Shown: positions 941 to 18,157 of the stretch, one piece after another
Position numbering within the stretch: position 1 is the stretch's first letter
Layout of the letters: each line of letters starts with the position of its first letter
NCBI RefSeq assembly: GCF_010685995.1
Contig: NZ_JAAGWK010000028.1
Span: forward strand, 1-64,000
Source: Goekera deserti
GTDB taxonomy: Bacteria; Actinomycetota; Actinomycetes; Mycobacteriales; Geodermatophilaceae
Length of the DNA stretch: 64,000 nucleotides
Direction: 5' to 3'
Made by a program: the position numbers and the translations under genes
Notes under the pieces: model-generated
What the model was told of the DNA's origin: nothing
What the model saw: only the letters and a program-made list of their open reading frames with translations
Database searches by the model: none

Positions 941-1178
941 GACTCGATCATCCAACCGAGCACCTGTCCTGGCGACACCCGGTGTGATGACCGCCGGGGC
1001 GGGAGGCAACCGGCGTCGCCGGTGAGCGCGGAACCGTGCACGCAGTGCCGGGCCTCGAGGTGTCGGGGCCGGACGGAGGCCGCGAACAGGGGTTTCGGCT
1101 TCAGGGCGGGAGCCGATGTGCCGATGGAGTCCCGAGGGGACCTCCTCGTGTTCGTGTCGGCTCGAGAGGACCCAGCTC

Positions 1179-2606
1179 GTGGCTCACGTCGGCAACCGAC
1201 CCGAGGGGAAGCCGTTCGTCCTGATCGGCTATGGCGTCGCGCTCGCCGGGTCCGTCGCCCTCTGGGGCGCCGACGCCACGTTCGGCGTGGTGGCCGGTGC
1301 GCTGAACGTGGTCTTCGCCGTCTACTTCTGCCGACACCTCGCGTTCGCGATCGCGGCCTCGCGCTGGGCGGACGGGGACCTGCACGCCGCCGACGTCGGG
1401 TTCGACACCTACACGCCGGCGGTCGCGGTCCTGGTCGGGTGCAAGAACGAGGCGCTCGTCGTCGACGGGATGGTCGCTGCGCTGCTCGAGCTGGACTACC
1501 CGGCCGAGCAGTTGACCCTCGTGGTCGTCGACGACGGCTCGGACGACGGGACCGGGGAGCGGCTCGACGTCTGGGCGGCCCGGGAGCCCCGTCTGCGCGT
1601 CCTGCACCGGCCGCCGGGCTCGGCGGGTGGCAAGTCCGGTGCGCTCAACGACGCACTGGCGCTCGTCGACGGCGAGATCGTGGTGGTCTTCGACGCCGAC
1701 CACGAGCCGGAGGCGACGACCATCCGACGCCTGGTCCGGCACTTCCGTGACCCGGCCACCGGTGCGGTCATGGGTCGCTGCGTCATCCGCAACAGCAAGG
1801 ACTCGCGGATGGCGAACACCGTCTTCCTCGACTACCTGTCCGGCTACCTGGTCAACGAGTACGGCCGCCAGGCGGTCTTCGAGCTGCCGGCGTACGGCGG
1901 GGCCAACTGTGCCGTGCGGATGTCGACCCTGCGGGGGCTCGGCGGCTGGAACCCCGAGACGGTCACCGAGGACACCGACCTCACCCTCCGCGTGCTGCTG
2001 AGCGGTCAGCGCGTGCGGTACGACGTCACCGCGATCGACTTCGAGGAAGCGGTGATCAGTACCCAGCGGTTCTGGAAGCAGCGCTACCGCTGGGCGCGCG
2101 GCCACCAGAAGTGCATGCGGGACTACCTGCTCCCGCTCATGCGCTGCCGGCACCTGACCCTCGTGGAGCGGGCCGAGACAGCGCTGTTCCTCTTCGTCTA
2201 CCACGTCCCGCTGCTGAGTGGGCTGGGCCTGCTGCTGACCGTGCTCCGGGCATTCGGGATCGGCGACCTGCCGGCGGTGGCGGTGCTGCCGCTGTCCATG
2301 CTGCTGTTCATCGGGCCACTCGCCGAGCTGTGCGTCGGACTGCTCATCGGCCGGGTCGAGCGGCGTGCGGCCTGGCAGCTGCTGGGGTTCCTGCCGGCCT
2401 TCGCACTGTCGATCTGGATCACCAGCCGCGCCTACGTCGACGGCATGCTGGGTCGCCCGTACAGCTGGGTCAAGACCTCGCGGTCGGGGTCGGTCTCCAC
2501 GGCCCGCCCGACGCCGCCGGCATCCCAGGACCGGCGAGGAGACGGGACGGGCCGCCCGCGCAGCTTCGCCCACCCCGGTCCGCTGGTCACCCGGGGGGAC
2601 CGGTGA
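1179..2606 (+). CDS. membrane family-2 glycosyltransferase, exosortase operon
   Basis: A 475-residue membrane GT2 enzyme expected to transfer sugar from a nucleotide sugar on the cytoplasmic face. All the hallmarks of the processive cellulose/hyaluronan-synthase-like branch are visible: VVDDGSDDG (Asp118), FDADHE (Asp172, Asp174), TEDTD (Glu264, Asp265) and the QRYRW motif (Gln301-Trp305). Two hydrophobic segments precede the catalytic domain and several follow it (residues about 330-420), and the C-terminal tail is basic and Pro-rich. The GTG at 1179 was chosen because GAGAGGA lies 8 nt upstream; the longer frame from 1116 has no such site. Its stop overlaps the exosortase start by 4 nt. Acceptor and product are unknown, but the neighbours suggest glycan attached to or co-exported with surface proteins. 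Confidence 0.9.
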   Translation: MAHVGNRPEGKPFVLIGYGVALAGSVALWGADATFGVVAGALNVVFAVYFCRHLAFAIAASRWADGDLHAADVGFDTYTPAVAVLVGCKNEALVVDGMVAALLELDYPAEQLTLVVVDDGSDDGTGERLDVWAAREPRLRVLHRPPGSAGGKSGALNDALALVDGEIVVVFDADHEPEATTIRRLVRHFRDPATGAVMGRCVIRNSKDSRMANTVFLDYLSGYLVNEYGRQAVFELPAYGGANCAVRMSTLRGLGGWNPETVTEDTDLTLRVLLSGQRVRYDVTAIDFEEAVISTQRFWKQRYRWARGHQKCMRDYLLPLMRCRHLTLVERAETALFLFVYHVPLLSGLGLLLTVLRAFGIGDLPAVAVLPLSMLLFIGPLAELCVGLLIGRVERRAAWQLLGFLPAFALSIWITSRAYVDGMLGRPYSWVKTSRSGSVSTARPTPPASQDRRGDGTGRPRSFAHPGPLVTRGDR

Positions 2607-3766
2607 GGCGGGTGCTGCGCCCCGGTACCGGCTCGCGTCTCGCCTCGGTGGTCGTGGACCTGCTGATCGCCGCCGCGGTCTGCGTGATCGGCTTCCGGTT
2701 CCTCGCCCTGCCGCTGCAGACCCTGGAGGCGGCGGCCGTGGCCTGGGTCCTGGGGCTGCTGGCGCCCGGGAAGGCGTCCGGCGTCCTGCCGACGCACGTG
2801 CTGCTGTTCCGCGGCGACGGCGAGATCATCGACGCGTTCGTCACCCCGTCCTGCTCGTCGATCCTGTCCGTCCTGGGCCTGTCCGCGCTGACCGCGGTGA
2901 TCCTCCGCCGGCGGCGCCTGCACGCGGTCGCCGGTCTGCTGACCGCGATCGCGGCGCTGCTGGTGCTCAACCACCTGCGCCTGCTGATGTCAGCGCTGGC
3001 CGGCCTGTGGTGGGGCGACGGCGCACTGATCCTCTTCCACGACTGGGTCGGCACGCTGTGGAGTCTCCTGTCCACGCTGCTGGGCTTCCTGCTCCTGGTG
3101 TGGGTGACGCTGCCGTCGCTGGAGCGAGCCGAGCAGGACGTCGACGGCCGTCACACCGCACGCCGTCCGGAGAGCTGGGCCCTGCCCGGGATGGGGTACC
3201 GGCAGGCCGAGGACGGTGCCCGGGCGCGCGCCGGACGCCGCCGTCAGACCCTCGCCGGGTTCCTGCACCGACGCGTGTACCCGCGCCGCCTGTCGGCGTG
3301 GTTGTCCGCGCGCCGCGAGGCAGCCCGCATCGACTACCGCCTGGGGCACCTGTCCGCCGGCGAACGGGCCGAGCGCATCGCGGGCCTGGTCGCCGACGGG
3401 ATCGGGGCGCACGCCGCCACGCTGGTCGCCGTCGCGTCCCTCGACCGCGACCCGGTGGTGCTCGACCGGCTCGCCGACGCCATCGCCGCGCGCCAGTGGG
3501 AACCGGTGACCAACCACCGGGTGGTTGCGCTCCGGCTGTGGGCTCGTGGCTGGCTGATGGCCCGGCCGGCGGTCGAGCAGGAGCGGCGGCCGACCCGCAC
3601 GAGCCTCGCCGAGACGACGATCCGGGTGCCGCGCATCGCCGTCCCACCGCGGACGCCCCCGCCCCGCAGCCCCCCGCCCCCGCAGCCGGAACGCGGATCC
3701 GGCCCCCACCCGATCAGCTTCGCGCGCCCGCCCGCCCCGTCCCCCCACCACGAGGTCCTGCAGTGA
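2603..3766 (+). CDS. exosortase/archaeosortase-superfamily protein with C-terminal extension
   Basis: A 387-residue polytopic membrane protein. Exosortases and archaeosortases are membrane transpeptidase-like enzymes that process C-terminal tripartite sorting signals through an invariant Cys, Arg and His. Here these are Cys84 in TPSCSSIL, Arg126 in LNHLRLL and His146 in FHDWVG, each at the edge of a hydrophobic helix as in the family. The membrane core covers about residues 14-175. After it come roughly 200 residues that are basic, then helical, then very Pro/Arg-rich; ordinary exosortases lack this extension. The start GTG overlaps the glycosyltransferase stop (GTGA) and has a G-rich ribosome site. 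Translational coupling to the glycosyltransferase and to the ATP-grasp gene (another GTGA overlap) argues for one system. The superfamily call is firm on motifs; the subfamily is not assigned. Confidence 0.85.
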   Translation: MRRVLRPGTGSRLASVVVDLLIAAAVCVIGFRFLALPLQTLEAAAVAWVLGLLAPGKASGVLPTHVLLFRGDGEIIDAFVTPSCSSILSVLGLSALTAVILRRRRLHAVAGLLTAIAALLVLNHLRLLMSALAGLWWGDGALILFHDWVGTLWSLLSTLLGFLLLVWVTLPSLERAEQDVDGRHTARRPESWALPGMGYRQAEDGARARAGRRRQTLAGFLHRRVYPRRLSAWLSARREAARIDYRLGHLSAGERAERIAGLVADGIGAHAATLVAVASLDRDPVVLDRLADAIAARQWEPVTNHRVVALRLWARGWLMARPAVEQERRPTRTSLAETTIRVPRIAVPPRTPPPRSPPPPQPERGSGPHPISFARPPAPSPHHEVLQ

Positions 3767-4851
3767 ACTCCTCCCCGCCCCCGCCCCCGGCCACCGGCCA
3801 CCGGACACCCTCGCACGGCCTGCACCACCGGCCCGCCGTGCTCGTCACCGGCGCCGGCGGCCCGGCCGGCATCGCCGTCATCCGCCGGCTGATGGCCCTC
3901 GGGCACCGGGTCGTCGCCGTGGACGCCGACTCCGCCGCCACCGGTGCGGCACTGGCCACCGCCGGGTTCACCGTGCCCCGGGCCGACCACGTGCGGTTCG
4001 TCGACGCGCTGATCGGCGTCGCCGTCGAGCACGACGTCGACGCGCTCATCGGCACCGTCGCCGAGGAGCTCCCCGCCCTGGCGGCCGGTGCCGACCGGCT
4101 CCGCGCCGCCGGCGTCGCCACGTGGCTCCCGGAGACGGCGAGCGTCGAGGTGTGCTGCGACAAGGCGGCCTTCGCGAGGGCGATGCGGGGGGCCGACGTG
4201 GCCCACCCGGCCACCACCGACACAGCGACCGGCCTGGTCTCGGTGCCCGGGCCGTGGGTGGTCAAGCCGAGAGCGGGCCGGGGCAGCCGCGGGGTGCAGC
4301 TGCTGGACAGCCGCGCCGCGGTGGTCGACGCACTGCACCGGGACCCGTCCCTGATCGCCCAGACCCGGCTGACCGGCCGGGAGTTCACCGCCGACACGCT
4401 GGTCGCCCGGGACGGCGAGCTGCTGACGGTGGTGCCCCGCTGGCGGGAGGAGACCAAGGCCGGCATCTCGGTCAAGGGCAGCACGTTCGACTCCGTGGCG
4501 GTCACCGACGTCGTCGCCGGTGCGCTGGCGGCCGTGCGGCTGACCGGGCCGGCCAACGTGCAGGGCTTCGTCGGCGACGACGGTCGGGCCACCGTGGTGG
4601 AGATCAACCCCCGCTTCTCCGGCGGGCTGCCGCTGACGCTCGCAGCCGGTGCGGACGTGGTCAGCGCCCACCTGGCCGGCATCCGGCACCCGGACGCGCC
4701 CCTGCCCCACCTGTGGTTCACCCCCGGCGTGCGCATGCGCCGGTACTTCGCCGAGGTCTTCACCGACGCGGACGGTGTTCCGGTGCCGGACCCGAGCGCG
4801 GTCCTCGCCGTCGGGTCGACCGACCGCGCCGGCGACGAGGTGCCGGCATGA
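3763..4851 (+). CDS. ATP-grasp carboxylate-amine ligase-like enzyme
   Basis: A 362-residue enzyme of the ATP-grasp superfamily (carbamoyl-phosphate-synthase-like), whose members join a carboxylate to an amine or thiol through an acyl phosphate. A Rossmann-like N-terminal domain begins with VLVTGAGGPAGIA at about residue 26. The nucleotide-binding VVKPRAGRGSRG lies near residue 166, and the metal/ATP motif Glu280-Ile-Asn282-Pro-Arg284 is intact. It begins at a GTG overlapping the exosortase stop and ends in an ATGA overlap with the epimerase gene. Similar small ATP-grasp proteins occur in sugar and peptide modification loci, so it may add an amino acid or acyl group to a sugar or peptide. The substrate cannot be told from sequence. 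Confidence 0.85.
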   Translation: MNSSPPPPPATGHRTPSHGLHHRPAVLVTGAGGPAGIAVIRRLMALGHRVVAVDADSAATGAALATAGFTVPRADHVRFVDALIGVAVEHDVDALIGTVAEELPALAAGADRLRAAGVATWLPETASVEVCCDKAAFARAMRGADVAHPATTDTATGLVSVPGPWVVKPRAGRGSRGVQLLDSRAAVVDALHRDPSLIAQTRLTGREFTADTLVARDGELLTVVPRWREETKAGISVKGSTFDSVAVTDVVAGALAAVRLTGPANVQGFVGDDGRATVVEINPRFSGGLPLTLAAGADVVSAHLAGIRHPDAPLPHLWFTPGVRMRRYFAEVFTDADGVPVPDPSAVLAVGSTDRAGDEVPA

Positions 4852-5999
4852 GCCACAGCCGCCACGTCCTCGTGCCCTTCGGCACGCGACCGGAAGTGGT
4901 CAAGCTGGCCCCGGTGGTGGCCGCACTGGTGGCGGCGGGGCACCGCGTCGACGTCGTCGACACCGGTCAGCACACCGACCCCGCGCTGTCCACCCAGCTG
5001 CAGCAGTCGCTGGGCCTCGCCCCCACCTGGCGGTTCGTCATGCCCACCGGTGACCCGGCGGCCCGCACCGGCGCCCTGCACGCCGACGCGTCAGCGGCCG
5101 TTGCCCGCTTCCGGCCGGACGTCGTCCTGGCGCTGGGCGACACGAACACCGTGCCGGCCTACGCCCTGGCCGCGCGCGGCGCAGGCATCCCCTTCGCCCA
5201 CCTGGAGGCCGGCCTGCGCAGCCTGAACCCGCGCAGCGTAGAGGAGGTCAACCGTCGGGTCGCGGCCGCCGTGGCCGCCCTGCACCTGGCCCCGACCCAC
5301 CGTGCCGCCGCGTTCCTGGCCGCCGAGGGCGTCCCGGCCGAGCGGGTGTTCGTGGTGGGCAACCCGGTCATCGACACCCTGGTCGCGCGCGGCGTGCGCC
5401 CGGTCCCGCTCGACCGGCGCCGTGGAGTGCTCGTCACGGCGCACCGGCCGACGAACGTCGACGACCCGGTGCGGCTCGAGCGGCTGGTCGAGGTCGTGTG
5501 CACGCTCGCCGAGCAGGTCGGCCCGGTGACGTTCCCGGTGCACCCGCGCACCGCGGCGCAGCTGACCCGGACCGGGCTCGGTGCCCGGCTGGAGCACCCG
5601 TCCATCGTGCTGACCGGCCCGATCTCGTACGACGCGCTGCTCGCCGCGCTCGCCGGTTCCCGGCTGGCCGTCACCGACTCCGGCGGGATCCAGGAGGAGG
5701 CGGCCCACCTCGGCGTCCCCGTCGTCGTGCTGCGCGGCTCCACGCCCCGCTGGGAGGGCGTCGAGGCGGGGACCACCACCCTGGCCGGCCTGGCCGACGC
5801 CGGCTCGCCCGGCGCGGTGGTCGCCGCCGCCCTGGCGCACCTCACCCCCCAGGCGCAGGCACACGCAGCGGACGCGCCCTGCCCCTACGGCGACGGGACG
5901 ACCGCCGCCCAGGTGGCAGCGCTGTTCTCGGCCGAGGCCACCGACGGGCTGCTGGCCATGGAGGAGCCGGACTTCACCGACGGCCGGTTGCCCTGGTGA
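4848..5999 (+). CDS. UDP-GlcNAc 2-epimerase homologue (WecB-like)
   Basis: A 383-residue GT-B-fold protein related to non-hydrolysing UDP-N-acetylglucosamine 2-epimerases, which make UDP-ManNAc. Visible family motifs are GTRPEVVKLAP (residues 12-22), LALGDTNT, HLEAGLRS, VEEVNRR and TDSGGIQEEA followed by GVEAGT. One key site differs. The loop that usually reads HR-x-EN near the catalytic His is HRPTN here (His199-Asn203): His and Arg are kept, but Thr replaces the usual Glu. This may mean altered specificity or an epimerase/hydrolase variant. The start ATG overlaps the ATP-grasp stop and its own stop overlaps the HAD gene start. It probably supplies an activated amino sugar to the glycosyltransferase of the same operon; that link is inference. 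Confidence 0.85.
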   Translation: MSHSRHVLVPFGTRPEVVKLAPVVAALVAAGHRVDVVDTGQHTDPALSTQLQQSLGLAPTWRFVMPTGDPAARTGALHADASAAVARFRPDVVLALGDTNTVPAYALAARGAGIPFAHLEAGLRSLNPRSVEEVNRRVAAAVAALHLAPTHRAAAFLAAEGVPAERVFVVGNPVIDTLVARGVRPVPLDRRRGVLVTAHRPTNVDDPVRLERLVEVVCTLAEQVGPVTFPVHPRTAAQLTRTGLGARLEHPSIVLTGPISYDALLAALAGSRLAVTDSGGIQEEAAHLGVPVVVLRGSTPRWEGVEAGTTTLAGLADAGSPGAVVAAALAHLTPQAQAHAADAPCPYGDGTTAAQVAALFSAEATDGLLAMEEPDFTDGRLPW

Positions 6000-6718
6000 A
6001 CGCCACGGCAGCCGACTGGGACGGGCCGCCGCCCCTCGCCGTCGTCGTCGACCTGGACGACACCCTCTACCCGCACGCCGACCACCTGGCCGGCGCCGCC
6101 GCCGCCGTCGCGGCTGCCGCGGCGGCGGCCGGGCTCGACGGGGACCGGGTGCACGCCGCCCTGCGCCGCGAGCTCGCCGCGGGCTCCGACACGGGGGGGA
6201 CGATCGACCGTGCGCTCCTGGCCTCCGGAGTGCCGGCGGGTCGGCTGCCGCAGCTCGTGCCGGGGCTGGTCGCCGCCTTCACGCGCCACGAGCCGGCCGT
6301 CCTGGAACCCCATGCCGGGGTGGTCGACGCGCTGGTGGCGCTCGGGCGGGTGGTCCCGGTCGGCTGCCTGACCGACGGGAACCCGGTGATCCAGGCGGCG
6401 AAGCTGGCCGCCACCGGGCTGGGTCCCCTCCTGCCGGAGGTGCTGGTCACGGACTCCCTCGGTGGACGTCCGACCCGCAAGCCCGCACCCGACGGGCTGG
6501 TCGAGCTCGCCCGACGTCTCGAGGTGCCGGCGCACCGGGTGCTGGTGATCGGGGACCGTCCGGGCAAGGACGTCGCCGTCGCCGCGGCGGTGGGGGCCCG
6601 GGCGATCCGGGTCCGGCAGGGTGAGTACGCCGCGGCCCCGGACGTCCCGCGGGCCTGGGCGACGACGGACTCGTTCCCGGCCGCGACCGTGCTGGCCCTG
6701 ACCGTGATCGACGCCTGA
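5996..6718 (+). CDS. HAD-superfamily phosphatase
   Basis: A 240-residue haloacid-dehalogenase-like hydrolase. Motif I is VVVDLDDTLYP with nucleophile Asp19 and Asp21, motif II is CLTDGNP, motif III is RKPAPDG with the conserved Lys, and motif IV is GDRPGKDVA. The cap lies between motifs I and II, as in subclass I. The GTG start overlaps the epimerase stop by 4 nt. In this operon a sugar- or sugar-phosphate phosphatase role is plausible. An Ala-rich stretch at residues 33-45 is a low-complexity insertion in the cap. Confidence 0.85.
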   Translation: MNATAADWDGPPPLAVVVDLDDTLYPHADHLAGAAAAVAAAAAAAGLDGDRVHAALRRELAAGSDTGGTIDRALLASGVPAGRLPQLVPGLVAAFTRHEPAVLEPHAGVVDALVALGRVVPVGCLTDGNPVIQAAKLAATGLGPLLPEVLVTDSLGGRPTRKPAPDGLVELARRLEVPAHRVLVIGDRPGKDVAVAAAVGARAIRVRQGEYAAAPDVPRAWATTDSFPAATVLALTVIDA

Positions 6719-6841: not shown

Positions 6842-7405
6842 ATGGTGACCAACGTGTTCCCGGACGGTCGGCGGCGCACGCGTGCGCGCCTGGCCAGGCT
6901 GGTGGCTGTGCCCGCGGTCGCCGCGGTGGCCGTGCTGGTCACCCCCGGGACGGCCTCGGCCTACGCACCCGACCCGGTCCAGCCGCAGGTGACCTGCATC
7001 GTCCCGGTGGCGGACGGCTACTGGACGGCGGTGTTCGGGTACACGAACCGGACCCTCACCGTCCAGCAGGAGCCCATCGGTCCGGACAACGACTTCGATC
7101 CCGACAAGTACAACGGCGCACAGCCCACCACCTTCCAGCCGGGCGTCCACCAGGGCGCGATCTCGATCCGCGTGCCGGCCAACGAGCGTCTGGTCAAGTG
7201 GGAGATCTACGCCTCGTCGGCGACCGCCTCCCGGGAGACCAGCCCGGCCTGCCCCGCACCGACGCAGATGCCGGCCGAGGGCAACGGCACCGGCGCCGCG
7301 ATCGGCGTGGTCGCCGCCGGGGCGGTGGGCGGGGTGGTGCTGCTGCGCACCCGGCGCCGGCTGGAGCGCGCGGCCGTGTCCGGCCCGACCCCTGCGGGAG
7401 CCTGA
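6842..7405 (+). CDS. secreted protein with C-terminal membrane tail, candidate exosortase substrate
   Basis: A 187-residue protein I cannot match to a named family. Residues 1-40 form a signal peptide: an Arg-rich start, a hydrophobic core VAVPAVAAVAVLV, and a TASA cleavage site before Tyr41. The mature part has Cys52 and Cys137, which could pair, and aromatic/Thr-rich beta-like sequence. The C-terminus is tripartite: a short PAEGNGT segment, a Gly/Ala/Val helix at 151-168, then a basic RTRRR cluster and a 14-residue tail. This is the general architecture of exosortase or sortase targets, though no canonical PEP or LPXTG motif is present. The ATG at 6842 was chosen because the signal peptide begins there and GAAGGTGGGG lies about 9 nt upstream. 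It sits between the HAD and PIG-L genes, so it is the best local substrate candidate. Confidence 0.75.
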   Translation: MVTNVFPDGRRRTRARLARLVAVPAVAAVAVLVTPGTASAYAPDPVQPQVTCIVPVADGYWTAVFGYTNRTLTVQQEPIGPDNDFDPDKYNGAQPTTFQPGVHQGAISIRVPANERLVKWEIYASSATASRETSPACPAPTQMPAEGNGTGAAIGVVAAGAVGGVVLLRTRRRLERAAVSGPTPAGA

Positions 7406-7406
7406 G

Positions 7407-8204
7407 GTGACCTCCCGCTGGCAGCGGACTCGCCCGGGCGACCAGGACAACCTGGCCGACCGGCGGCGTGAGCCCGGCACGGACGGCGCGGGTCGGCCGG
7501 GGATCAGCGTGCTGGCGATCGGGTCGCACCCCGACGACATCGAGCTCGGCTGTGGCGGCGCCCTGCTGGCGCACGCCGCCGCCGGTGACCGGGTGACGAT
7601 GCTGGTGCTGACCGGTGGCGAGAACGGCCCGGACGGCGGTCGTGGTCACGTGCGGCGGGTGGAGCAGGAGCGCGCGGCCGCACTGATGGGTGCCGAGCTG
7701 GTGTGGGGCGGGCTGCAGGACTGCCAGGTGGTGCCCGACTCGGCCACCGTCCGCGTGGTCGAGCAGACCCTGCAGGCCGTGCAGGCCGACCTTGTCTACG
7801 TACACGCACCCGACGACAGCCACCAGGACCACCGTGCCGTGGCCTCGGCCACGCTGGGTGCCGCGCGCCGGCTGCCGCGGGTCCTGCACTACCAGAGCCC
7901 GTCGACCCTGTCGTTCAACCCGACCGTGTTCGTCGACGTGACCGCGCACGTCGGCGGCAAGGTCGCCGCGCTCGCCTGCCATGCCTCGCAGGTGGAGATG
8001 TCGGCGATGGTGGAGCCCGACGCGGTCGTGGCTTCGGCCCGGCACTGGGGTGCCCAGGCCCGCATCGGCTACGCCGAGGCGTTCCAGCCGACCCGGATGG
8101 TGCTGGACCTCTCGCCGGTGCGCCGCACCCCCGCCGAGACGCCAGCACTGGCCGACCTGCCTGCTGCCTGGGCGCTGGTGCCCGCCTCCCTCGGCGCCCG
8201 CTGA
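7407..8204 (+). CDS. PIG-L/LmbE-family N-deacetylase
   Basis: A 265-residue member of the zinc-dependent PIG-L family, which removes acetyl groups from GlcNAc-containing glycans, glycolipids or small thiol precursors such as those of mycothiol. The metal motif SHPDDIE is at residues 40-46 (His41, Asp44), and a second metal site DSHQDH lies near residue 137. The first ~30 residues are a polar, basic leader outside the domain. The GTG start lies 1 nt past the stop of the secreted-protein gene, with GGGAGCCTGAGG just upstream. Last in the exosortase operon, it may deacetylate the sugar built by the glycosyltransferase. It could instead be a mycothiol-type deacetylase, but no other mycothiol gene is nearby. 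Confidence 0.85.
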   Translation: MTSRWQRTRPGDQDNLADRRREPGTDGAGRPGISVLAIGSHPDDIELGCGGALLAHAAAGDRVTMLVLTGGENGPDGGRGHVRRVEQERAAALMGAELVWGGLQDCQVVPDSATVRVVEQTLQAVQADLVYVHAPDDSHQDHRAVASATLGAARRLPRVLHYQSPSTLSFNPTVFVDVTAHVGGKVAALACHASQVEMSAMVEPDAVVASARHWGAQARIGYAEAFQPTRMVLDLSPVRRTPAETPALADLPAAWALVPASLGAR

Positions 8205-8291: not shown

Positions 8292-8594
8292 TTGCACCTG
8301 TCACCACACGAGCAGGAACGCCTGCTCCTCAGCTACGCCGCCGAGCTCGCCCGGCGGCGGCAGTCGCGCGGTCTGAAGCTGAACCTGCCCGAGGCGACGG
8401 CGATCGTGACCGACCACGTGCTGGAGGGCGCGCGGGACGGCGTGCGGGTCACCGAGCTCATGCAGTCCGGGCGCACCGTGCTGAGCCGGGACGACGTGAT
8501 GGACGGCGTCCCGGAGCTGCTGGAGGAGGTGCAGGTGGAGGCGACCTTCCCGGACGGGACGAAGCTGGTGACCGTCCACCACCCCATCCCGTGA
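8292..8594 (+). CDS. ureA: urease gamma subunit
   Basis: A 100-residue subunit of nickel urease, which hydrolyses urea to ammonia and carbamate in the cytoplasm. The N-terminus [12 protein letters not shown] and the segment [22 protein letters not shown] are typical of UreA, and the length is the family norm. It begins with TTG preceded by GGAGG at 8278-8282. It is the first gene of ureABCFGD and overlaps ureB by 4 nt. Confidence 0.97.
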
Positions 8595-8929
8595 GCGGCG
8601 GGCTGGACGGTCGGGACGTGCCCGTGGTGCCGGGCGAGGTGCTGCCCGCGCAGGCCGAGGGCATCGAGACGCTGCCCGGGGTGCCCCGGGTCCGGCTCGA
8701 GGTGCACAACGCCGGCGACCGGCCGGTGCAGGTCGGCTCGCACTTCCACTTCGCGCAGGTCAACGCGGCGCTGCGGTTCGACCGTTCGGCCGCGCACGGG
8801 CACCGGCTGGACATCGCGGCCGGCACCGCCGTCCGCTTCGAACCGGGCATCGGGCGTTCGGTCGACCTGGTGCCGCTGGGTGGCGCGCGCGTCGTCCCCG
8901 GGCTGACCGCCGAGGGAGGGCTGGGCTGA
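8591..8929 (+). CDS. ureB: urease beta subunit
   Basis: A 112-residue UreB. It contains PGEVLPAQ near the start, the signature [19 protein letters not shown], and [14 protein letters not shown] followed by DLVPLGG, all conserved in urease beta subunits. The GTG start overlaps the ureA stop (GTGA) and the stop overlaps the ureC ATG by one base. The three structural genes are therefore tightly coupled. Confidence 0.97.
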
Positions 8930-10650
8930 TGGTCCGGTTGAGTCGTGAGCGCTACGCCCAGCTGTACGGGCCGACGGTGGGCGACCGGGTGCGCCTGGCC
9001 GACACCGACCTGCTGATCGAGGTCACCGAGGACCGCTGCGGCGGCCCGGGGCGGGCCGGCGAGGAGGCCGTGTTCGGCGGCGGCAAGGTGATCCGCGAGT
9101 CGATGGGGCAGGGGCGGGCCACCCGCGCCGAGGGTGCTCCCGACCTGGTGATCACCGGTGCCGTGGTGCTCGACCACTGGGGGGTGGTCAAGGCCGACGT
9201 CGGCATCCGGGACGGGCGCATCGTGGCCCTGGGCAAGGCCGGCAACCCGGACACGATGGACGGCGTGCACCCCGACCTGGTGATCGGGCCCGGCACCGAG
9301 GTGCTGGCCGGCAACGGCAAGGTCCTCACCGCCGGCGGCATCGACTGCCACGTGCACTTCATCTGCCCGCAGATCGTGCCCACCGCGCTCGGCGCCGGGA
9401 TGACCACGCTGATCGGTGGCGGTACCGGGCCGGCCGAGGGGTCGAAGGCCACCACGATCACCCCGGGCGACTGGTACCTGGCCCGGATGCTCGAGGCGAT
9501 GGACGGCATGCCGGTCAACGTCGCGCTGCTCGGCAAGGGCAACACCGTGTCGCAGGAGTCGATGGAGGAGCAGCTGCGGGCCGGGGCCAGCGGCTTCAAG
9601 CTGCACGAGGACTGGGGGTCCACGCCCGCGGCGATCGACGCGTGCCTCACCGTCGCCGGCCGGCACGGCGTCCCGGTGGCGCTGCACTCGGACACGCTGA
9701 ACGAGGCCGGGTTCGTCGAGGACACCCTCGCCGCGATCGGTGGCCGGAGCATCCACGCGTACCACACCGAGGGAGCCGGGGGCGGGCACGCGCCCGACAT
9801 CATCACCGTCGCCGGGCACCCGAACGTACTGCCCAGCAGCACGAACCCGACCCGACCGCACACCGTGAACACCCTCGACGAGCACCTCGACATGCTGATG
9901 GTCTGCCACCACCTCGACAGCTCGGTGCCCGAGGACCTCGCCTTCGCCGAGAGCCGGATCCGCCCCACCACGATCGCGGCCGAGGACCTGCTGCACGACC
10001 TGGGCGCCATCTCGATGATCGGCTCCGACGCCCAGGCCATGGGCCGGGTCGGTGAGGTGGTGATGCGCACCTGGCAGACGGCGCACGTGATGAAGCGCCG
10101 CCGCGGGTCGCTGACCGGCGACGGCGCGGCGGACAACCTGCGGGCCCGCCGGTACGTCGCCAAGTACACGATCTGCCCGGCCGTCGCGCACGGCATCGAC
10201 GCCGAGGTCGGCTCGGTGGAACCGGGCAAGCTGGCCGACCTGGTGCTCTGGGACCCGGCGCTGTTCGGCGTCCGGCCGCACGTGGTGCTCAAGGGCGGGA
10301 TGATCGCCTGGGGCCAGATGGGCGACGCGAACGCCTCCATCCCCACCCCGCAGCCGGTGTTCCCGCGGCCGATGTTCGGCGCGTTCGGGCGGGTGCCCGC
10401 GCAGACGTCGCTGTACTTCGTGGCGCCGGCCGCGATCGACGCGGGGCTGGCCGACCGGCTGGCGGTGGACCGGCGGCTGGTCGCGGTCACCGACACCACC
10501 CGGCTGGGCAAGGCGGACATGCCAGAGAACACGGCGCTGCCGGAGATCCGGGTCGACCCGGACACCTTCACGGTGTCCGTCGACGGCGACGTCTGGGAAC
10601 CCGAGCCGGTCAGCGAGCTGCCCATGGCCCAGCGCTACTTCCTGTTCTGA
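8929..10650 (+). CDS. ureC: urease alpha (catalytic) subunit
   Basis: A 573-residue catalytic subunit with the normal length and motif order. Nickel ligands are recognisable: His141 and His143 in GGIDCHVHF, the carbamylated Lys224 in GFKLHEDWG, the His in [10 protein letters not shown], the His in [11 protein letters not shown] and the Asp in [10 protein letters not shown]. The flap with its active-site Cys-His is present as VCHHLD. Nothing suggests inactivation. The accessory genes ureF, ureG and ureD follow directly; ureE is absent, which is common in actinobacterial urease operons. Confidence 0.98.
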
Positions 10651-10657
10651 GCCGGCC

Positions 10658-11380
10658 GTGTCGCTCACCGCGCTGCTCGCCCTCGCCGACTCCCGGCTGC
10701 CCGCGGGTGGCCACGCGCACTCCGGCGGGGTGGAGCAGGCGATCAGCGCCGGGCTGGTGACCGACCCCGTCTCGCTGGCCGGCTTCCTGCGCCGGCGGGT
10801 GGGCACGGCCGGATCGGTCGCGGCCGGGCTCGCGGCGGCTGCCTGCGCCGTGGTGGGCCGTGCCGTGGGGGGCGGGGCCGTTGCGGCGGGTGCTGCCGTG
10901 CCGCCGTCGGTGGCGGCCGCCCTGGCCGACCTGGACGCGGAGGCCGACGCCCGGACCCCGTCCCCGGCGCAGCGCGCGGCGTCCCGGCAGCAGGGGCGGG
11001 GGCTGCTGCGGGTGGGCCGGCGGGCCTGGCCGCACCCGGCCTGGGACGCGCTGCCCACGCAACCGCACCACGCCGTGGCGCTCGGGGTGGCCGCCGCGGC
11101 TGCCGGCGCCCGTCCGGCCGACGCGGCGGCCGCAGCCGCCTACCTGTCGATGAGCGGTCCGGCCACCGCCGCCCAGCGGCTGCTGGCCCTGGACCCGATC
11201 ACCGTGGCCGCGGTGACCGCCCGGCTGTCGCCGCTGGTCGACGAGGTCGCCGGCGCCGCCGCCCGGGCCGCCGCGGGCCCGTTCGGCGGCCTGGACCTGC
11301 TGCCCGCGTCCGCCGACCCGCTGCTCGACCTGCTCGCCGAACTGCACGTCTCCCGGAAGGACCGGTTCTTTGCCTCCTGA
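10658..11380 (+). CDS. ureF: urease accessory protein UreF
   Basis: A 240-residue UreF, which acts with UreD and UreG in GTP-dependent nickel loading of the apo-urease. The N-terminal [23 protein letters not shown] is the family signature (usually SPALPIGGFSYSxGLE), and the central region is Ala-rich and helical as expected. It starts with GTG 7 nt after ureC and its 3' end overlaps ureG by 11 nt. Confidence 0.92.
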
Positions 11381-12062
11381 CCACGACCTGGACGACTACG
11401 TCGACCCCTACGACCCCGGGCAGCGCCGCGCCCCGGACGGCGGCCCGGGCGCACTCCGGGTGGGCATCGGCGGGCCGGTCGGCTCCGGCAAGACCGCGCT
11501 GGTGGCCGCGCTGTGCCGCACGCTCGGCGAGGAGCTCGACCTCGTCGTGGTCACCAACGACATCTACACCACCGAGGACGCCGACTTCCTGCGGCGCAAC
11601 GCCGTGCTGCCCGACGACCGGATCGAGGCGGTGCAGACCGGCTGCTGCCCGCACACCGCGATCCGGGACGACATCACCGCCAACCTGGACGCCGTCGAGC
11701 TGCTGGAGGCCCGGCACCCCGGCGTCCAGCTGGTGCTGGTGGAGTCCGGCGGGGACAACCTGACCGCGTCGTTCAGCTACGGGCTGGTCGACGTGCAGGT
11801 GTTCGTCGTCGACGTCGCCGGTGGGGACAAGGTGCCGCGCAAGGGCGGGCCAGGGGTGACCAGCGCCGATCTGCTGGTGGTCAACAAGACCGACCTGGCG
11901 CCGTTCGTCGGCGCCGACCTCGACGTCATGCGCCGGGACTCCGACGCCGTGCGCGGAGAGAAGCCGACGCTGCTGATCTCGCTGCGCGAGGACCCGGCGG
12001 CGACCGACGTCGCGGCGTGGGTGCGGGCGCAGGTGCGCTCCCGGGCCCTGCAGTCGGCATGA
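11370..12062 (+). CDS. ureG: urease accessory GTPase UreG
   Basis: A 230-residue SIMIBI-class GTPase that delivers nickel to urease. The P-loop GPVGSGKT is at residues 35-42, preceded by [21 protein letters not shown], the nickel-binding TGCCPH (usually GCPH), [16 protein letters not shown] and NKTDLAP are all present. The N-terminus is a short acidic and Asp/Tyr-rich leader rather than a His-rich one. The TTG start lies inside the end of ureF and is preceded by GGAAGGA. Confidence 0.95.
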
Positions 12063-12081
12063 GCGTGCCCGGTCGGTCACG

Positions 12082-12819
12082 GTGAGGAGCCTGGTCGAGG
12101 TGGTGGCGCGGGCCGGCCCGGGTGGGCGCACCGTGCTGCCGGTGGTGCGCGCCAGCGGCCAGCTGGCCGTGCGGCGCACCGGGCCGGTGACCGTGCACCT
12201 GGTGGCCACCGCCTTCGGCCCGCTGGGCGGGGACGACGCCGAGGTGCGGCTGGTGGTCGAGCCGGGCGCGGTGCTGCGGGTGCGCTCGGTGGCGGCGGCG
12301 GTCGTGCTGCCCGCGCGGGGCGACTCGCCGCCGTCGGCGCAGCGCGTGCTGGCCGACGTGGACGGCGACCTGGACCTGCAGCTGGAGCCGACCGTCGTGG
12401 CGGCGCGCGCCCACCACGTCGCCACGGTGACCGTACGGCTCGGTGCCGGCGGCGAGCTGACGCTGTCCGAGCAGGTGCTGCTGGGCCGCACCGGCGAGCA
12501 GCCCGGCCGGTGGACCGGGACCACCCGGGTGCTGCGCGACGGGCGGCCGCTGCTGCACACCACGCTGGACCTCGGCCCGGGTGCGCCCACCTGGGCGCCG
12601 CCGATGGCACCCCGGGCGTACGCCTCCACCACGCGGGTCCGGCCGGGACCCGGGGTCGGGACGGCCACCGGCGTGGACGCCGTGCGGCTGCCACTGCCCG
12701 GTGGCTGGGTGAGCACGGCCTGGGGTGACGCCCTGGACCGGGTCGCGCGCGCGGACGCCGACCTGCACCCGGGGTCGCGCCCCGCTGCGCAGCCGGTGCT
12801 CGCCGGGGTCCCGTCGTGA
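12082..12819 (+). CDS. ureD: urease accessory protein UreD
   Basis: A 245-residue UreD/UreH scaffold protein of the urease activation complex. The beta-rich pattern is typical: a [18 protein letters not shown] segment, [21 protein letters not shown] and [16 protein letters not shown]. It begins with GTG 19 nt after ureG. Its stop overlaps the allantoinase start by 4 nt, so urease maturation and allantoin breakdown appear to be co-translated. Confidence 0.9.
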
Positions 12820-14123
12820 TCGTCCGTGCCCGGCGGGTGGTGCTGCCCGGCGGCGAGCGGGCCGCGGCGGTGCACGTCGCCGACGGCCGGGTCACCGCGG
12901 TGACCGGCTTCGACGACGTCACCGGCCCGGTGCACACCCTGGCCGACGACGAGGTGCTGCTGCCCGGGCTGGTCGACAGCCACGTGCACGTCAACGAGCC
13001 GGGGCGCACCGAGTGGGAGGGGTTCGTCTCGGCCACCCGCGCCGCGGCGGCCGGCGGCGTCACCACGATCGTGGACATGCCGCTCAACTCCATCCCGCCG
13101 ACCACCTCGGTCGCCGCGCTGCGGGAGAAGCAGGCCGCGGCGCGGGGCCGGGTGGCGGTCGACGTCGCGTTCTGGGGCGGCGCCGTCCCGGGGAACGTGG
13201 ACCAGCTGCGCCCGCTGCACGAGGCCGGCGTCGTCGGGTTCAAGTGCTTCCTGCTCGACTCCGGGGTGCCGGAGTTCCCCCCGCTGGACGACCCGGGGCT
13301 GCGCGCGGCGCTCGGTGAGCTGGCCGGCTTCGACGGGCTGCTCATCGCGCACGCCGAGGACCCGGACGTGATCGCCGCGGCCCCGGAGCCGGTCGGGGGC
13401 AGCTACGCGAGCTTCCTGGCCTCCCGGCCGGGCGCCGCGGAGGAGACGGCGATCGGCGGCCTGGTCGCGGCGGCGCGGGACACCGGCGCCCGGGTGCACG
13501 TGGTGCACCTGGCCGACGCCGACGCCCTGCCGCTGCTGCGCGCGGCCCGCGCCGAGGGCGTGCGGGTGACCGTCGAGACCTGCCCGCACTACCTGACCTT
13601 CGACGCCGCCGAGGTGCCCGACGGGGACACCGCGTTCAAGTGCTGCCCGCCGATCCGGGAGGCCTCGCACCGGGAGGCGCTGTGGGCGGCGCTCGCCGCG
13701 GGCGACGTCGACCTGGTGGTCAGCGACCACTCGCCGTGCACGCCGGACCTCAAGCGCCTCGACGTCGGCGACTTCGGGCTGGCGTGGGGCGGCATCGCCT
13801 CGCTGCAGGTGTCGCTGCCGGCGGTGTGGTCCGGGGCGCGGGCGCGGGGACTCGGGCTGGCCCAGGTGGTCGACTGGATGTCCGCCGCGCCGGCGCGGCT
13901 GGCCGGGCTGCCGGGCAAGGGCGCCATCGCGGTGGGCCGGGACGCCGACCTCGTGGCGTTCGCGCCGGAGGAGACCTGGACGGTCGGGGAGCTGCACCAC
14001 CGCAACCCGGTGACGCCCTACGCGGGCCGGCGGCTCACCGGCGTGGTGCGGCGGACCTGGCTCGCCGGCCGGGAGATCGGCGACGTCCCGCTCGGCCGGC
14101 TGCTCGGCCGGGGGTCGGTCTGA
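12816..14123 (+). CDS. allB: allantoinase
   Basis: A 435-residue cyclic amidohydrolase that opens allantoin to allantoate. The metal motif [17 protein letters not shown] and [16 protein letters not shown] are diagnostic for allantoinase within the dihydroorotase-like group. The metal-bridging Lys is in [10 protein letters not shown], further His ligands are in IAHAED and VHLADA, and the catalytic Asp is in VSDHSPC. The GTG start overlaps ureD, coupling a urea-generating pathway to urease. Confidence 0.95.
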
Positions 14124-14164
14124 GTGGCCCGGCCCGGAACAGGGGCTCGTGCCAGAGTGACCCG

Positions 14165-15154
14165 GTGACCGATGCCCAGCGCCTGCCCGACCTCGCCAGC
14201 CGTGCCCTGGGGGGCGCCGTGGTGGCGGCCAACGACGAGCTGTTCGCGGCCCGGGAGAACCTGGTGCTGCCGCACCCGGCCGTGGCGCGGGCCGACTTCG
14301 GCCACAAGGGCAAGGAGTACGACGGCTGGGAGACCCGACGGCGGCGCAGCCCGGGGCACGACTGGGCGATCGTGCGGCTGGGCGCGCCCGGGACCGTGGC
14401 CGCCGTGGTCATCGACACCGCCTTCTTCACCGGCAACTACCCGCCGCGGGCGTCGGTGGACGGGGTCGCCGTCGAGGGCCACCCGTCGGTCGAGGAGCTG
14501 GTCGCGGCCGACTGGCAGCCGCTGCTGCCGCTGGTCGACCTGGCCGGGGACACCGCCAACGCCTTCGCCGTCGCCTCCGACCGCCGGGTGACGCACGTGC
14601 GGCTGTCCATCCACCCCGACGGCGGGGTGGCCCGGTTCCGGGTGCACGGCACCGTCGTGCCCGACCCGCGCCTCCTCGACGTCGGCCCGTTCGACCTGGC
14701 CGCGCTGGAGAACGGCGGGCAGGTGACCGCCGTCAGCAACGCGTTCTACGGCAGCCCCCACCAGCTGATCGGGCGGGGCGACGCCCGCTCGATGGGCGAG
14801 GGCTGGGAGAACGCCCGCCGCCGGGACGACGGCAACGACTGGGTGGAGGTCTCGCTGGCCTGCCAGGGCACCGTCGCGATGGCCGAGCTGGACACGTCGT
14901 ACTTCCTGGGCAACGCACCGGGCGCCGCGTCGCTGACCGGCCGCACCGCCGACGGCACGGACGTGCAGCTCCTGCCCCGCACCCGGCTGCAGCCGGACAC
15001 CCGGCACCGCTTCCTGCTCGACGAGCACCCGGGCGTCGTCGCCGTCCGGCTGGACGTCTTCCCCGACGGGGGCATGGCCCGGCTGCGGCTGTGGGGCCGG
15101 CCCACAGCGGCGGGCCGGGAGTCGCTGCAGCGCCGGTGGTCCGGCTCGGCCTGA
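14165..15154 (+). CDS. alc: allantoicase
   Basis: A 329-residue allantoicase, which splits allantoate into ureidoglycolate and urea. It has the expected two-domain repeat. KGKEYDGWETRRRR with DWAIVRLGAPGTVAAVVIDTAFFTGNYPP in the first half is echoed by GEGWENARRRDDGNDWVEVSL and AELDTSYFLGNAP in the second half. The GTG at 14165 begins a typical N-terminus (LPDLASRALGGAVVAANDELFA). It ends 16 bp from the convergent xanthine dehydrogenase gene. Its urea product is the direct substrate of the urease encoded just upstream. Confidence 0.95.
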   Translation: MTDAQRLPDLASRALGGAVVAANDELFAARENLVLPHPAVARADFGHKGKEYDGWETRRRRSPGHDWAIVRLGAPGTVAAVVIDTAFFTGNYPPRASVDGVAVEGHPSVEELVAADWQPLLPLVDLAGDTANAFAVASDRRVTHVRLSIHPDGGVARFRVHGTVVPDPRLLDVGPFDLAALENGGQVTAVSNAFYGSPHQLIGRGDARSMGEGWENARRRDDGNDWVEVSLACQGTVAMAELDTSYFLGNAPGAASLTGRTADGTDVQLLPRTRLQPDTRHRFLLDEHPGVVAVRLDVFPDGGMARLRLWGRPTAAGRESLQRRWSGSA

Positions 15155-15170
15155 CCCGCCCGCCTGCGGC

Positions 15171-17633
15171 TCAGTGCCCGGCGGCGCCCTCGGACTCCCA
15201 GGTGCCGGGCCGGTCGGCCGGCTCCTCGCTGAGAGCGGTGCCACCGGTGGTGGCCGGTGGGCGCGGTGTCGTGCGGGTGACCGTCGGCGGCGTGCCGATG
15301 CCCAGCGCGATGTGCTCCGGGCGGATCGGCACCGACGGCAGCGGCAGGCCGGTCGCGTCGCGCACGGCCGCGGCCACCGCGGGCACCGCGGTGCACAGCG
15401 GGGGCTCGCCGACGCCCTTCCAGCCGTGCGGCATGCCGGGCTGCGGGTCGGTGACGTACACCGAGACGACCTCGGGGGCGTCCACGATCGTCGGGATCAG
15501 GTAGTCCTGGAACTCCGGGTTGGTGATGTGCCCGTCCACCACGACCACCTCCTCCATGACCGCCAGGCCCATGCCCTGCACGATGCCGCCCTCGATCTGG
15601 CCGAGCAGCTGGGTCGGGTTCACCACCGTGCCGACGTCCTGGCAGGAGGCGATCTGGACGACGCTGACCAGCCCCAGCTCCACGTCGACGTCGACCACCG
15701 CCCGCTGCGCGGAGAACGCGAAGCCGACGTAGACGTCGCCCTGGCCGAGGGCCGTCGTCGGGGGGTGCGCGAAGTGCTCGGTGGCCCGGACGGTGTGCCC
15801 GGGCGTGGCTGCGGCCACGTCGACCAGCGGGGTGCCGTCGCAGGTCACCGCGCCGTCCTGGATGGAGAGCAGGCCGGCGTCCAGCCCGCGCTCGCGGGCG
15901 ACCCGGGCCAGCAGCCGGTCCCGGACGGCGACGCACGCCCGGTGCACCGCCGTCCCGGAGGCCATGGTCTGCCGGGAGGCCGACGTCGATCCGGCCGAGG
16001 CGATCAGCGTGTCCGGCTGGGTCACGGTGACGGTGTCGGCGCCCAGCACCGTGCGGGCCACCTGCTCGGCGACGGTGACGAAACCCTGCCCGACCTCGGC
16101 GCACGCGCAGTGCACGGTGGCGTGCCCGTCCCGCAGGGACACCGTGGCGGTGGACTCGTCCACGTGGCCCTCGCTGAAGGCCAGGTTCTTCATGGTCACC
16201 GCGTAGCCGACGCCGCGGCGCACCGAGCCCGGGCTGCTGGCCCGCCCCACGCCGCCGGGCAGCTTGCCGCCGGCCGGGGGCAGCGGCACCGCGCGCAGAC
16301 CCTCGATCACCTCGCGGACCGGCGTGGGCTGGGTGAAGCGCTGGCCGAAGGTGGCCGTGTCGCCCCGGCGCAGCGCGTTGCGGAGCCGGATCTCCAGCGG
16401 GTCCAGGTCCAGGGCGGCGGCCAGGGCGTCCATCTGCGACTCGTGCGCGAATGCGGCCTGCGGCACGCCGAAGCCGCGCATCGCCCCGCAGGAGGGGTTG
16501 TTGGTGCGCACCGACCAGCCCTCGAACCGGCCGTTGTCCACCCGGTAGGGCCCCTGCAGCAGGGTGACGGTGTTGGCGATGACGACCGGGCTGGTCGAGG
16601 CGTAGGCGCCGCCGTCCAGCACGACCCGGCCCTCGACGCTGACGACCCGGCCCGACGCGTCGGCGGAGTGCCGCAGCCAGATGGTGCCGGGGTGCCGCTG
16701 CCGGTGGGCCAGGAAGGACTCCTCCCGGGTGTACTCCATCTTCACCGGGCGCCCGGTGGCCAGCGCCAGCAGGCAGGCGTGCGTGTGCAGCGTGACGTCC
16801 TCCCGGCCGCCGAACGCCCCGCCCACGCCGGCCAGCACGACCTGCACCTTCTCCGGCGGCAGCCCGGTGGCCCAGGCGATCTGCCGCTGGTCGGAGTGCA
16901 GCCACTGGGTGGCCACCTCCAGCCGCACCCCGCCGTCGGCGGTCGGCGTCGCCATGCCGGCCTCGGGTGCCAGGAAGGCGGGGTCCTGCATGCCGATCCG
17001 GTAGGTGTTCTCCACGGTGACCACGCCGCGGGCCCGTGGGTCGCCGCACTCGTAGGCCAGGTGCCGGTAGACGTTGCCCTCGGCGTGCAGCGGCTCGGCG
17101 TCCGCGGCGAGGGTCGGGTCGGTCTGCGCGGGCAGTGGCTCGTACTCGACGACGATCGCGCGGGCCGCCCGGCGGGCGGTGCGCGGGTCGATCGCGGCCA
17201 CCACCGCGACCGGCTCACCCGCGTAGCGCACCACCCCGTCGGCCAGCACCGGCTCGTCGCGCAGGGTGAGCCCGAAGTGCAGGTCGCCCGGCACGTCGGC
17301 GGCGGTGAGGACGGCGTGCACGCCGGGCAGCGCCCGGGCCGCCGCCGTGTCGATGCGCAGCAGCCGCGCGTGCGGGTGCGGCGAGCGCAGCGTGACGCCG
17401 TGCAGCATGCCCTCGGCGTGCAGGTCACCGGCGTAGGAGAACTCCCCGCGCACCTTCGCCTGCCCGTCCGGCCGCCGCACGGACGCCCCGACTCCGGCCC
17501 TTTCCGCGGAAATGGCCGGACGTCCGGCGGCCGTTTCCGCGGAAGTGGCCGGTCCTGTGGCCCTTTCCGCGGAAGTGGCCGCTCGTTCGGCGGTCGTTTG
17601 CGCGGAAGTGGCTGGTTGGGGGACGGGGGTCAC
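15171..17633 (-). CDS. xanthine dehydrogenase molybdopterin-binding subunit
   Basis: An 820-residue molybdenum hydroxylase large subunit. Molybdopterin-contacting motifs are GGAFGGRED, CGAMRGFGVPQ and GQGFVTVAEQ, and the catalytic Glu is in GWKGVGEPP near the C-terminus. The RGFGVPQ form fits xanthine dehydrogenases better than CO dehydrogenases. The GTG start overlaps the iron-sulfur subunit stop. Residues about 7-47 are an extra Ala/Ser/Thr/Glu-rich N-terminal leader made of four repeats of an ATSAERA-like unit, encoded by four copies of a palindromic DNA element (17496-17613). The ordinary domain begins near ASVRRPDGQAKVRGEFSYAGD. Pathway context is purine oxidation to urate. No XdhC-type maturation gene is in view. 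Confidence 0.9.
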   Translation of the reverse strand: MTPVPQPATSAQTTAERAATSAERATGPATSAETAAGRPAISAERAGVGASVRRPDGQAKVRGEFSYAGDLHAEGMLHGVTLRSPHPHARLLRIDTAAARALPGVHAVLTAADVPGDLHFGLTLRDEPVLADGVVRYAGEPVAVVAAIDPRTARRAARAIVVEYEPLPAQTDPTLAADAEPLHAEGNVYRHLAYECGDPRARGVVTVENTYRIGMQDPAFLAPEAGMATPTADGGVRLEVATQWLHSDQRQIAWATGLPPEKVQVVLAGVGGAFGGREDVTLHTHACLLALATGRPVKMEYTREESFLAHRQRHPGTIWLRHSADASGRVVSVEGRVVLDGGAYASTSPVVIANTVTLLQGPYRVDNGRFEGWSVRTNNPSCGAMRGFGVPQAAFAHESQMDALAAALDLDPLEIRLRNALRRGDTATFGQRFTQPTPVREVIEGLRAVPLPPAGGKLPGGVGRASSPGSVRRGVGYAVTMKNLAFSEGHVDESTATVSLRDGHATVHCACAEVGQGFVTVAEQVARTVLGADTVTVTQPDTLIASAGSTSASRQTMASGTAVHRACVAVRDRLLARVARERGLDAGLLSIQDGAVTCDGTPLVDVAAATPGHTVRATEHFAHPPTTALGQGDVYVGFAFSAQRAVVDVDVELGLVSVVQIASCQDVGTVVNPTQLLGQIEGGIVQGMGLAVMEEVVVVDGHITNPEFQDYLIPTIVDAPEVVSVYVTDPQPGMPHGWKGVGEPPLCTAVPAVAAAVRDATGLPLPSVPIRPEHIALGIGTPPTVTRTTPRPPATTGGTALSEEPADRPGTWESEGAAGH
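17496..17613. repeat. four in-frame copies of a 22-bp palindromic element
   Basis: Units lie at 17496-17517, 17529-17550, 17559-17580 and 17592-17613. Each has arms close to GGCCCTTT and AARTGGCC around a CGCG centre; the fourth is the most degenerate. They are spaced 33, 30 and 33 bp, always a multiple of three, so they stay in the reading frame of the xanthine dehydrogenase large subunit and give repeated ATSAERA-like peptides. Two close relatives sit inside the Ni/Co transporter gene at 53.4 kb. Confidence 0.85.
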
Positions 17634-18157
17634 GGGGTGGCCTCGCGGCGGGTGCGGGCGGCGGTCTCGACGGCGGCGACGATGCGGCCGTACCCGGTGC
17701 AGCGGCACAGGTTGCCGTAGAGCGCGGCCTCGATCTGCTCACGGGTCGGGTCCGGGTCCGTGTCCAGCAGCTCGGTGGCCGCGGTGACGAAGCCGGCGGT
17801 GCAGATGCCGCACTGCACGGCGCCCTCGGCGAGGAACGCCTCCTGCACGTCGGACAGCTCGCCGTCCGGCCCGCCGATCGAGGCGATGGTGCGCACGCTG
17901 CAGCCGGCCGCGGTGGCGGCGGGCAGCAGGCAGGAGCAGAGCACGTGGCCGTCGTCGTCGGCCCGGTCGGGCTCGAAGGCGACCCGGACGGCGCAGGCGC
18001 CGCAGCGGCCGTGCGCGCACCCGGTCTTGGGCCCGCGGACGCCGAGCCGCTCGCGCAGCACCGTCAGCAGGGACTCCGACCAGGGCGCGGTGACCTCGTG
18101 CGCGGCGCCGTCGACGGTGAGGGAGAACGTGACGGACTCGTCCGCCTCGCTGCTCAC
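17630..18157 (-). CDS. xanthine dehydrogenase iron-sulfur subunit
   Basis: A 175-residue electron-transfer subunit with two [2Fe-2S] clusters. The plant-ferredoxin-type site is GCAHGRCGAC (Cys47, Cys52, Cys55) with a fourth Cys in HVLCSC. The second, all-helical site is QCGIC (Cys116, Cys119) and NLCRCTGYG (Cys151, Cys153). It passes electrons from the molybdenum centre to the FAD subunit. Its GTG start overlaps the FAD-subunit stop by 4 nt, and its own stop overlaps the large-subunit start. Confidence 0.95.
   Translation of the reverse strand: MSSEADESVTFSLTVDGAAHEVTAPWSESLLTVLRERLGVRGPKTGCAHGRCGACAVRVAFEPDRADDDGHVLCSCLLPAATAAGCSVRTIASIGGPDGELSDVQEAFLAEGAVQCGICTAGFVTAATELLDTDPDPTREQIEAALYGNLCRCTGYGRIVAAVETAARTRREATP

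Follow-up and report, generated by a model that had tools for sequence, protein, structure and literature searches.

The PEP-CTERM/exosortase (EpsH) system was recognised through a shared phylogenetic profile and pairs proteins that carry a signal peptide and a C-terminal motif, helix and basic cluster with a hydrophobic Cys/Arg/His enzyme and exopolysaccharide-type genes (PMC1569441). A 2006 survey found PEP-CTERM proteins in no Actinomycetes (Haft 2006; PMC1569441). Archaeosortase A of Haloferax, which acts on PGF-CTERM proteins with a tripartite tail, is presumed to cleave through an active-site cysteine and to transfer its substrate to an amine acceptor, as proposed by way of a thioester intermediate that is resolved by a lipid amine (PMC7157517). 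Rhombosortase and GlyGly-CTERM proteins form pairs of one enzyme and one substrate family whose genes usually lie close to each other, and such one-to-one systems have been called "dedicated", also for exosortases (PMC3237569). Sortase substrates of the LPXTG type end in their motif, a helix and a basic tail. The core of exosortase S (XrtS, NF033767) is short, about 170 residues, and no target for it was found in the papers that we could search. To our knowledge, little is established about the acceptors to which bacterial exosortases join their substrates.

Here, we analyse a locus of the soil actinobacterium Goekera deserti, at which a small secreted protein (the target) is encoded near an exosortase-family enzyme within a 64-kb stretch of DNA, the whole of which we call the window. 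The locus has the overall plan of the PEP-CTERM/exosortase system, but its motif is P-x4-G/NG and not Pro-Glu-Pro, its hosts are monoderm actinobacteria, and it has one substrate family per genome where PEP-CTERM systems often have many. With archaeosortase A it shares a distant enzyme relationship (TIGR04178) and the tripartite tail, whereas the motif is different and the neighbouring genes are of the amino-sugar/glycan and not of the phosphatidylserine-type lipid kind. The pairing of one enzyme with one, usually nearby, substrate family recalls rhombosortase, which is however an unrelated enzyme, a rhomboid serine protease, with a different motif. Like LPXTG proteins, the target combines an LPxxG-like sequence with a helix and a basic tail, but it has no conserved Thr at position 4 and does not track sortase genes. 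The window's enzyme has the short core of XrtS, and differs from it in being extended at the C-terminus by a stretch in which RAEQD..GRHTARRP is nearly invariant. The combination of an exosortase with substrates that bear a tripartite tail is of a known kind; the subfamily in the window is one without its own NCBIfam model (release 20.0). Our literature search found nothing on actinobacterial exosortase targets or on this enzyme subfamily, but many subscription papers lay outside it and the absence is no proof. We propose, with a probability of roughly 85%, that the exosortase of this operon has the target as its dedicated substrate and would recognise and cut the C-terminal tag and anchor the protein.

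Results

The target gene (Table 1) encodes 187 residues. A purine-rich AAGGTGGGG upstream of the ATG at 6842 supports this start; translation could alternatively begin at 6791, where there is another in-frame ATG. The translated N-terminus has an Arg-rich n-region (RRRTRAR), a hydrophobic h-region and an ASA-type cleavage site (TASA-YA) near residue 40. There are exactly two cysteines, C52 and C137, and the second opens a tail that runs C-PAPTQ-MPAEGNG-TG, Gly/Ala/Val helix, RTRRR, with PAEGNG (residues 144-149) lying within T-Q-M-P-A-E-G-N-G-T-G. AlphaFold2, supplied with 40 homologues, predicts a confident beta-sandwich for the body at about residues 44-137 (pLDDT about 97), places the motif inside a low-confidence linker and ends in a single helix at 151-179. 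Translation and model thus bear out the anatomy that had been read from the letters (signal peptide, two cysteines, PAEGNGT, Gly/Ala/Val helix, RTRRR). A signal peptide followed by a C-terminal motif, helix and basic cluster is the plan of exosortase substrates, and the target has this plan.

Table 1. Features of the exosortase operon and of the target protein, in window coordinates
Feature	Position	Strand	Basis or remark
Membrane glycosyltransferase GT2, PgaC-like	1116..2606	+	Pfam PF00535/PF13641
Exosortase-family enzyme, 387 aa, GTG start overlapping GT2 stop	2603..3766	+	TIGR04178
ATP-grasp ligase-like protein	3763..4851	+	PF15632, PF02655, PF21360
UDP-N-acetylglucosamine 2-epimerase family protein	4848..5999	+	PF02350, E 1e-77
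HAD-family hydrolase, start approximate	5990..6718	+	PF00702, PF13242
Target: small secreted protein with C-terminal sorting signal	6842..7405	+	Present only together with exosortase
Putative signal peptide, residues about 1-40	6842..6961	+	Read from sequence
Beta-sandwich body domain, residues 44-137, two invariant cysteines	6971..7252	+	AlphaFold2, alignments
Putative recognition motif MPAEGNG	7268..7288	+	Family form [LM]P-x-x-[GA]-NG; universal core P-x4-G
C-terminal transmembrane helix, residues about 151-168	7292..7345	+	Sequence; model puts helix at 151-179
Basic cluster RTRRR, residues 169-173	7346..7360	+	Sequence; R173 kept in at least 90% of 40 sequences
PIG-L (LmbE-like) N-acetylglucosaminyl de-N-acetylase family protein	7407..8204	+	PF02585, E 3e-23

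Known families do not capture the protein. In a Pfam and NCBIfam scan of 40 target-family members, neither the target nor its tag was recognised by any model and no PEP-CTERM family was among the matches, which agrees with the original prediction that PEP, LPXTG and other known motifs are absent; LPXTG models reached noise level. The body domain is covered by no Pfam model, a PDB sequence search with the target returned nothing specific, and Ig-like folds among the PDB matches in a fold comparison of the body domain are unspecific at Z of about 5-6.

As predicted, the target gene lies inside the exosortase operon, and this operon is conserved among relatives. The order is GT2, exosortase, ATP-grasp, UDP-GlcNAc 2-epimerase-like, HAD, target and PIG-L; the PIG-L start codon sits one base past the target stop codon, and this gene is conserved in the module. 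The seven-gene module recurs across Geodermatophilaceae loci of Geodermatophilus, Blastococcus, Modestobacter and Klenkia, with the PIG-L gene placed before GT2 in some Blastococcus, while distant metagenome-assembled genomes (MAGs) and genome G114 have the order target, PIG-L, GT2, exosortase, ATP-grasp, epimerase, HAD. GT2 adjoins the exosortase in every locus examined; it matches NCBIfam PgaC_IcaA under the cut-off (E 6e-35) and the XrtP- and XrtG-associated glycosyltransferases more weakly. In several distant MAGs (L119, L170-L175), the exosortase is part of an open frame of 803-943 residues, and in L119 exosortase and ATP-grasp are continuous in one 804-residue ORF, which suggests that the two proteins act together. 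Four Blastococcus loci (L089, L093, L094 and L095) show two PIG-L-like matches 3' of the target. In Geodermatophilus amargosae (L088, 14155-15423), the target gene forms a tandem pair, of which one copy is apparently frameshifted and the other intact. Directly downstream of the operon in the window (8292-17720), the translations resemble urease, allantoinase, allantoicase and xanthine dehydrogenase, by their look a purine-degradation cluster.

Is the enzyme an exosortase? It scores 35.1 bits against TIGR04178 (exo_archaeo; cut-off 23), its relatives score 30-39 bits, and Cys84, Arg126 and His146 are kept without exception across 31 sequences. A helical membrane core is predicted (residues ~10-170) that holds this triad and is followed by a helical C-terminal extension. 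PF09721 (Exosortase_EpsH), a narrower model than TIGR04178, hits the same region at about 18.6-20 bits, under its gathering score of 25.7. None of the named exosortase subfamilies in NCBIfam release 20.0 matches the window's enzyme above cut-off. XrtS is the best-scoring of them (49.8 bits), and membership was rejected since the enzyme and its relatives reach 29-50 bits against a cut-off of 145. A sequence search of the PDB gave no relative, and fold comparison matches were unspecific. Judged by these profiles and alignments, the window's enzyme has the exosortase signature and belongs to no named subfamily. Other exosortases lie at L051-L056 (genomes G044, G035, G003, G085, G039 and G028, the last with both kinds), with no such target at these loci; where scanned, they score 45-83 bits to XrtP, XrtR or XrtS.

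Target and enzyme occur together. Target homologues are present in 19 of 97 related genomes, and the exosortase (E < 1e-49) in exactly those 19; the other 78 have neither, with weak matches only (1e-5 to 1e-8) to other exosortases. One weak match in the target search of the 97 genomes, L030, was set aside as chance. Within the family alone, both are found in 19 of 57 genomes; five genera include members with and without the pair, and in each of them target and enzyme coincide throughout (exact test stratified by genus, p about 4e-7). Strong target matches (E < 1e-20) among 249 genomes of the order are again found in 19, of which 17 belong to the earlier 19; the further two are G244 and, from another family, G114, and each of them also encodes the exosortase. 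Among 84,980 species scanned, 38 exosortase loci came to light, with the target nearby in 33 and, for the 5 at a contig end or unlinked, elsewhere in the same genome. Neither the enzyme without the target nor a tagged target without the enzyme was seen in the genomes searched. Orthologues that occur equally often without the exosortase would have spoken against the original prediction, and the 97 and 249 genomes, the 38 loci and the distant genomes yielded none without it.

This pairing is not a matter of linkage alone. Tagged copies lie 719 kb from the operon in G036, 167 and 464 kb in G046, 176 kb in G041 and 43 kb in G054, the sole target copy of G004 is on a different contig from the exosortase, and gene calls around the unlinked tagged copies showed no module genes; with copies this far from the exosortase, operon linkage does not explain the pairing.

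All 30 target homologues in related genomes end in [LM]P-x-x-[GA]-NG followed by helix and Arg, typically as LPADGNG, membrane helix and arginines. In 28 aligned family tails, the only invariant residues are C, P, N and G, in the pattern C-x(4-7)-[LM]-P-x-x-[GA]-N-G, a hydrophobic stretch of about 20 residues and an Arg cluster. Across 40 sequences, P144 is invariant and N148 and G149 are nearly so, whereas the two residues after the Pro are highly variable; a single copy reads GNS (L106), and among the more distant relatives the motif is VPADGNG in L123 and LPAEGNG in G114. Enzyme and tagged target are also kept in Acidimicrobiaceae-type MAGs, with the motif LPVDPLG, and in an Acidothermus MAG, with KPVSLVG and KPVPVSG. 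These distant forms point to P-x4-G as the universal core and to NG as the Geodermatophilaceae form. Aligning orthologues, as had been suggested, therefore upheld a conserved motif before the helix, the lack of which would have counted against a sorting signal; the reading of a new motif stands in this respect, but the motif is not PAEGNG itself: its form is the wider [LM]P-x-x-[GA]-N-G, with P-x4-G as the core in distant relatives.

Placed on the exosortase tree, the forms of the motif sort with the clades of the enzyme: PVDPLG falls in one clade, xxANG in Klenkia and a Blastococcus neighbour, and PEEGNG/PAEGNG in one Geodermatophilus clade. This match would be predicted by co-evolution of motif and enzyme, and shared descent alone would also give it. 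Since motif and body are of common descent, part of the motif conservation may likewise be inheritance.

Do other proteins carry the tag? A profile of the tail alone, trained on the target family and scored on the best 74 candidates per genome, gave 30 matches at E <= 6e-13 in the 19 enzyme-bearing genomes, all of them target homologues, with the next match at 4e-4. The DNA pattern [LIM]-P-x-[DE]-G-N-G, searched in these 19 and in 19 enzyme-free genomes, was followed by a helix-Arg tail only in target homologues; the remaining matches fall within unrelated ORFs or at their ends and have no such tail (all contexts were read except G020:C17 and G012:C13, the latter a known target copy). Within the window, no other ORF combines P-x4-G with a helix and an Arg tail. 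The search for further proteins with the same tail, which had been proposed along with the signal, thus returned target-family members only, and a general sorting tag with many unrelated substrates was rejected. With no unrelated carrier found, sequence comparison argues, within the limits of these searches, for a dedicated system of one enzyme and one substrate family.

As a single protein family bears the tail, it is enzyme-negative genomes, and not unrelated carriers, that speak for the independence of tail from body. Of 396 genomes from the whole phylum, 6 besides the window's own have the body domain alone, and none of these 6 has the exosortase. The motif precedes a C-terminal helix in none of the five proteins that were read (all but L169), and four of these five have no C-terminal helix-Arg tail, often since the domain is inside a longer protein. 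In three distant actinobacteria (L165, L166 and L168; G417, G533 and G462), the domain forms part of larger secreted proteins with several domains. In L167 (G353), it is part of a small secreted protein with the tail VPDVP, helix and RRTRR in a genome that lacks the exosortase, so that such helix-plus-Arg tails can exist without an enzyme of this type; possibly, this protein is the substrate of another sorting enzyme.

Discussion

How could the target be sorted? Because the tag is confined to genomes with this exosortase, the enzyme most likely cuts it and fixes the protein to the surface. The signal peptide would export the target, and the C-terminal helix and basic cluster would hold it in the membrane with the beta-sandwich outside. 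The exosortase would then recognise [LM]P-x-x-[GA]-NG, with its core P-x4-G, just outside the helix. By analogy with the exosortase/archaeosortase family, the active-site cysteine would attack near P-x4-G, the helix-Arg tail would be released and the new C-terminus would be transferred to a membrane- or glycan-linked amine acceptor. Going by the gene content of the operon, this acceptor is probably an amino-sugar glycan or glycolipid, which GT2, the 2-epimerase and PIG-L would make with help from HAD and ATP-grasp.

The same tail might be a plain type I membrane anchor on a protein that serves the glycan operon and is left uncut by the exosortase. Stop-transfer anchors also look like a helix plus an Arg cluster, operon context alone would explain the co-occurrence for linked copies, and the protein of G353 combines body, helix and Arg in a genome free of this exosortase. 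However, a plain anchor needs neither an invariant Pro nor a near-invariant Asn-Gly in an otherwise variable, unstructured linker, the motif persists in copies remote from the operon, which are likewise confined to genomes with the exosortase, and known exosortase substrates are built on this tripartite plan; we therefore consider this reading improbable. A shade more improbable, in our judgement, is that the main substrate of the exosortase is another protein and the target an operon accessory, for instance a carbohydrate-binding subunit. Exosortases often have many substrates, as established for PEP-CTERM (PMC3237569), and our whole-genome search relied on a profile trained on the target family only, with the best 74 candidates per genome scored. 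Yet neither profile nor DNA pattern brought up another carrier in the 19 enzyme-bearing genomes, and every enzyme-bearing genome has the target, even where it is not beside the enzyme.

Very improbable is a signal for the sortase class, to which the exosortase would be unrelated. Class E sortases are common in actinobacteria, sortases are present in the tagged genomes, LPxxG resembles LPXTG and one copy even reads LPATG (L023/L089). But sortase (PF04203) is found in 93 of 97 genomes regardless of the tail, which the exosortase matches exactly; the position of the LPXTG Thr is taken here by D, E, L, I, Y, Q or T, with Thr in that one copy only and NG following, and the LPXTG models TIGR01167 and PF00746 score at noise level (best E 0.04 and 0.07).

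We thus favour cleavage and anchoring of the target by its co-encoded exosortase, although it counts against this reading that the enzyme stays under the thresholds of PF09721 and of all named exosortase subfamilies, and that G353 has a helix-plus-Arg tail without such an enzyme. A wider reading, to which we would give even odds, is that monoderm actinobacteria have here an exosortase subfamily not described before. It would have a sorting signal P-x4-G of its own ([LM]PxxGNG in Geodermatophilaceae), a one-to-one partner with an Ig-like surface domain and, in the operon, the enzymes for the (amino-sugar) acceptor to which this partner is joined, and hence be a self-contained protein-glycan anchoring module.

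In conclusion, a Gram-positive exosortase gains a defined candidate substrate and recognition motif. The system is a dedicated one whose single substrate has about 100 folded residues, its hosts are culturable desert actinobacteria and the presumed acceptor genes lie in the operon, which makes the question of the anchor directly testable. Used as a profile, the motif could annotate proteins that are now called hypothetical.
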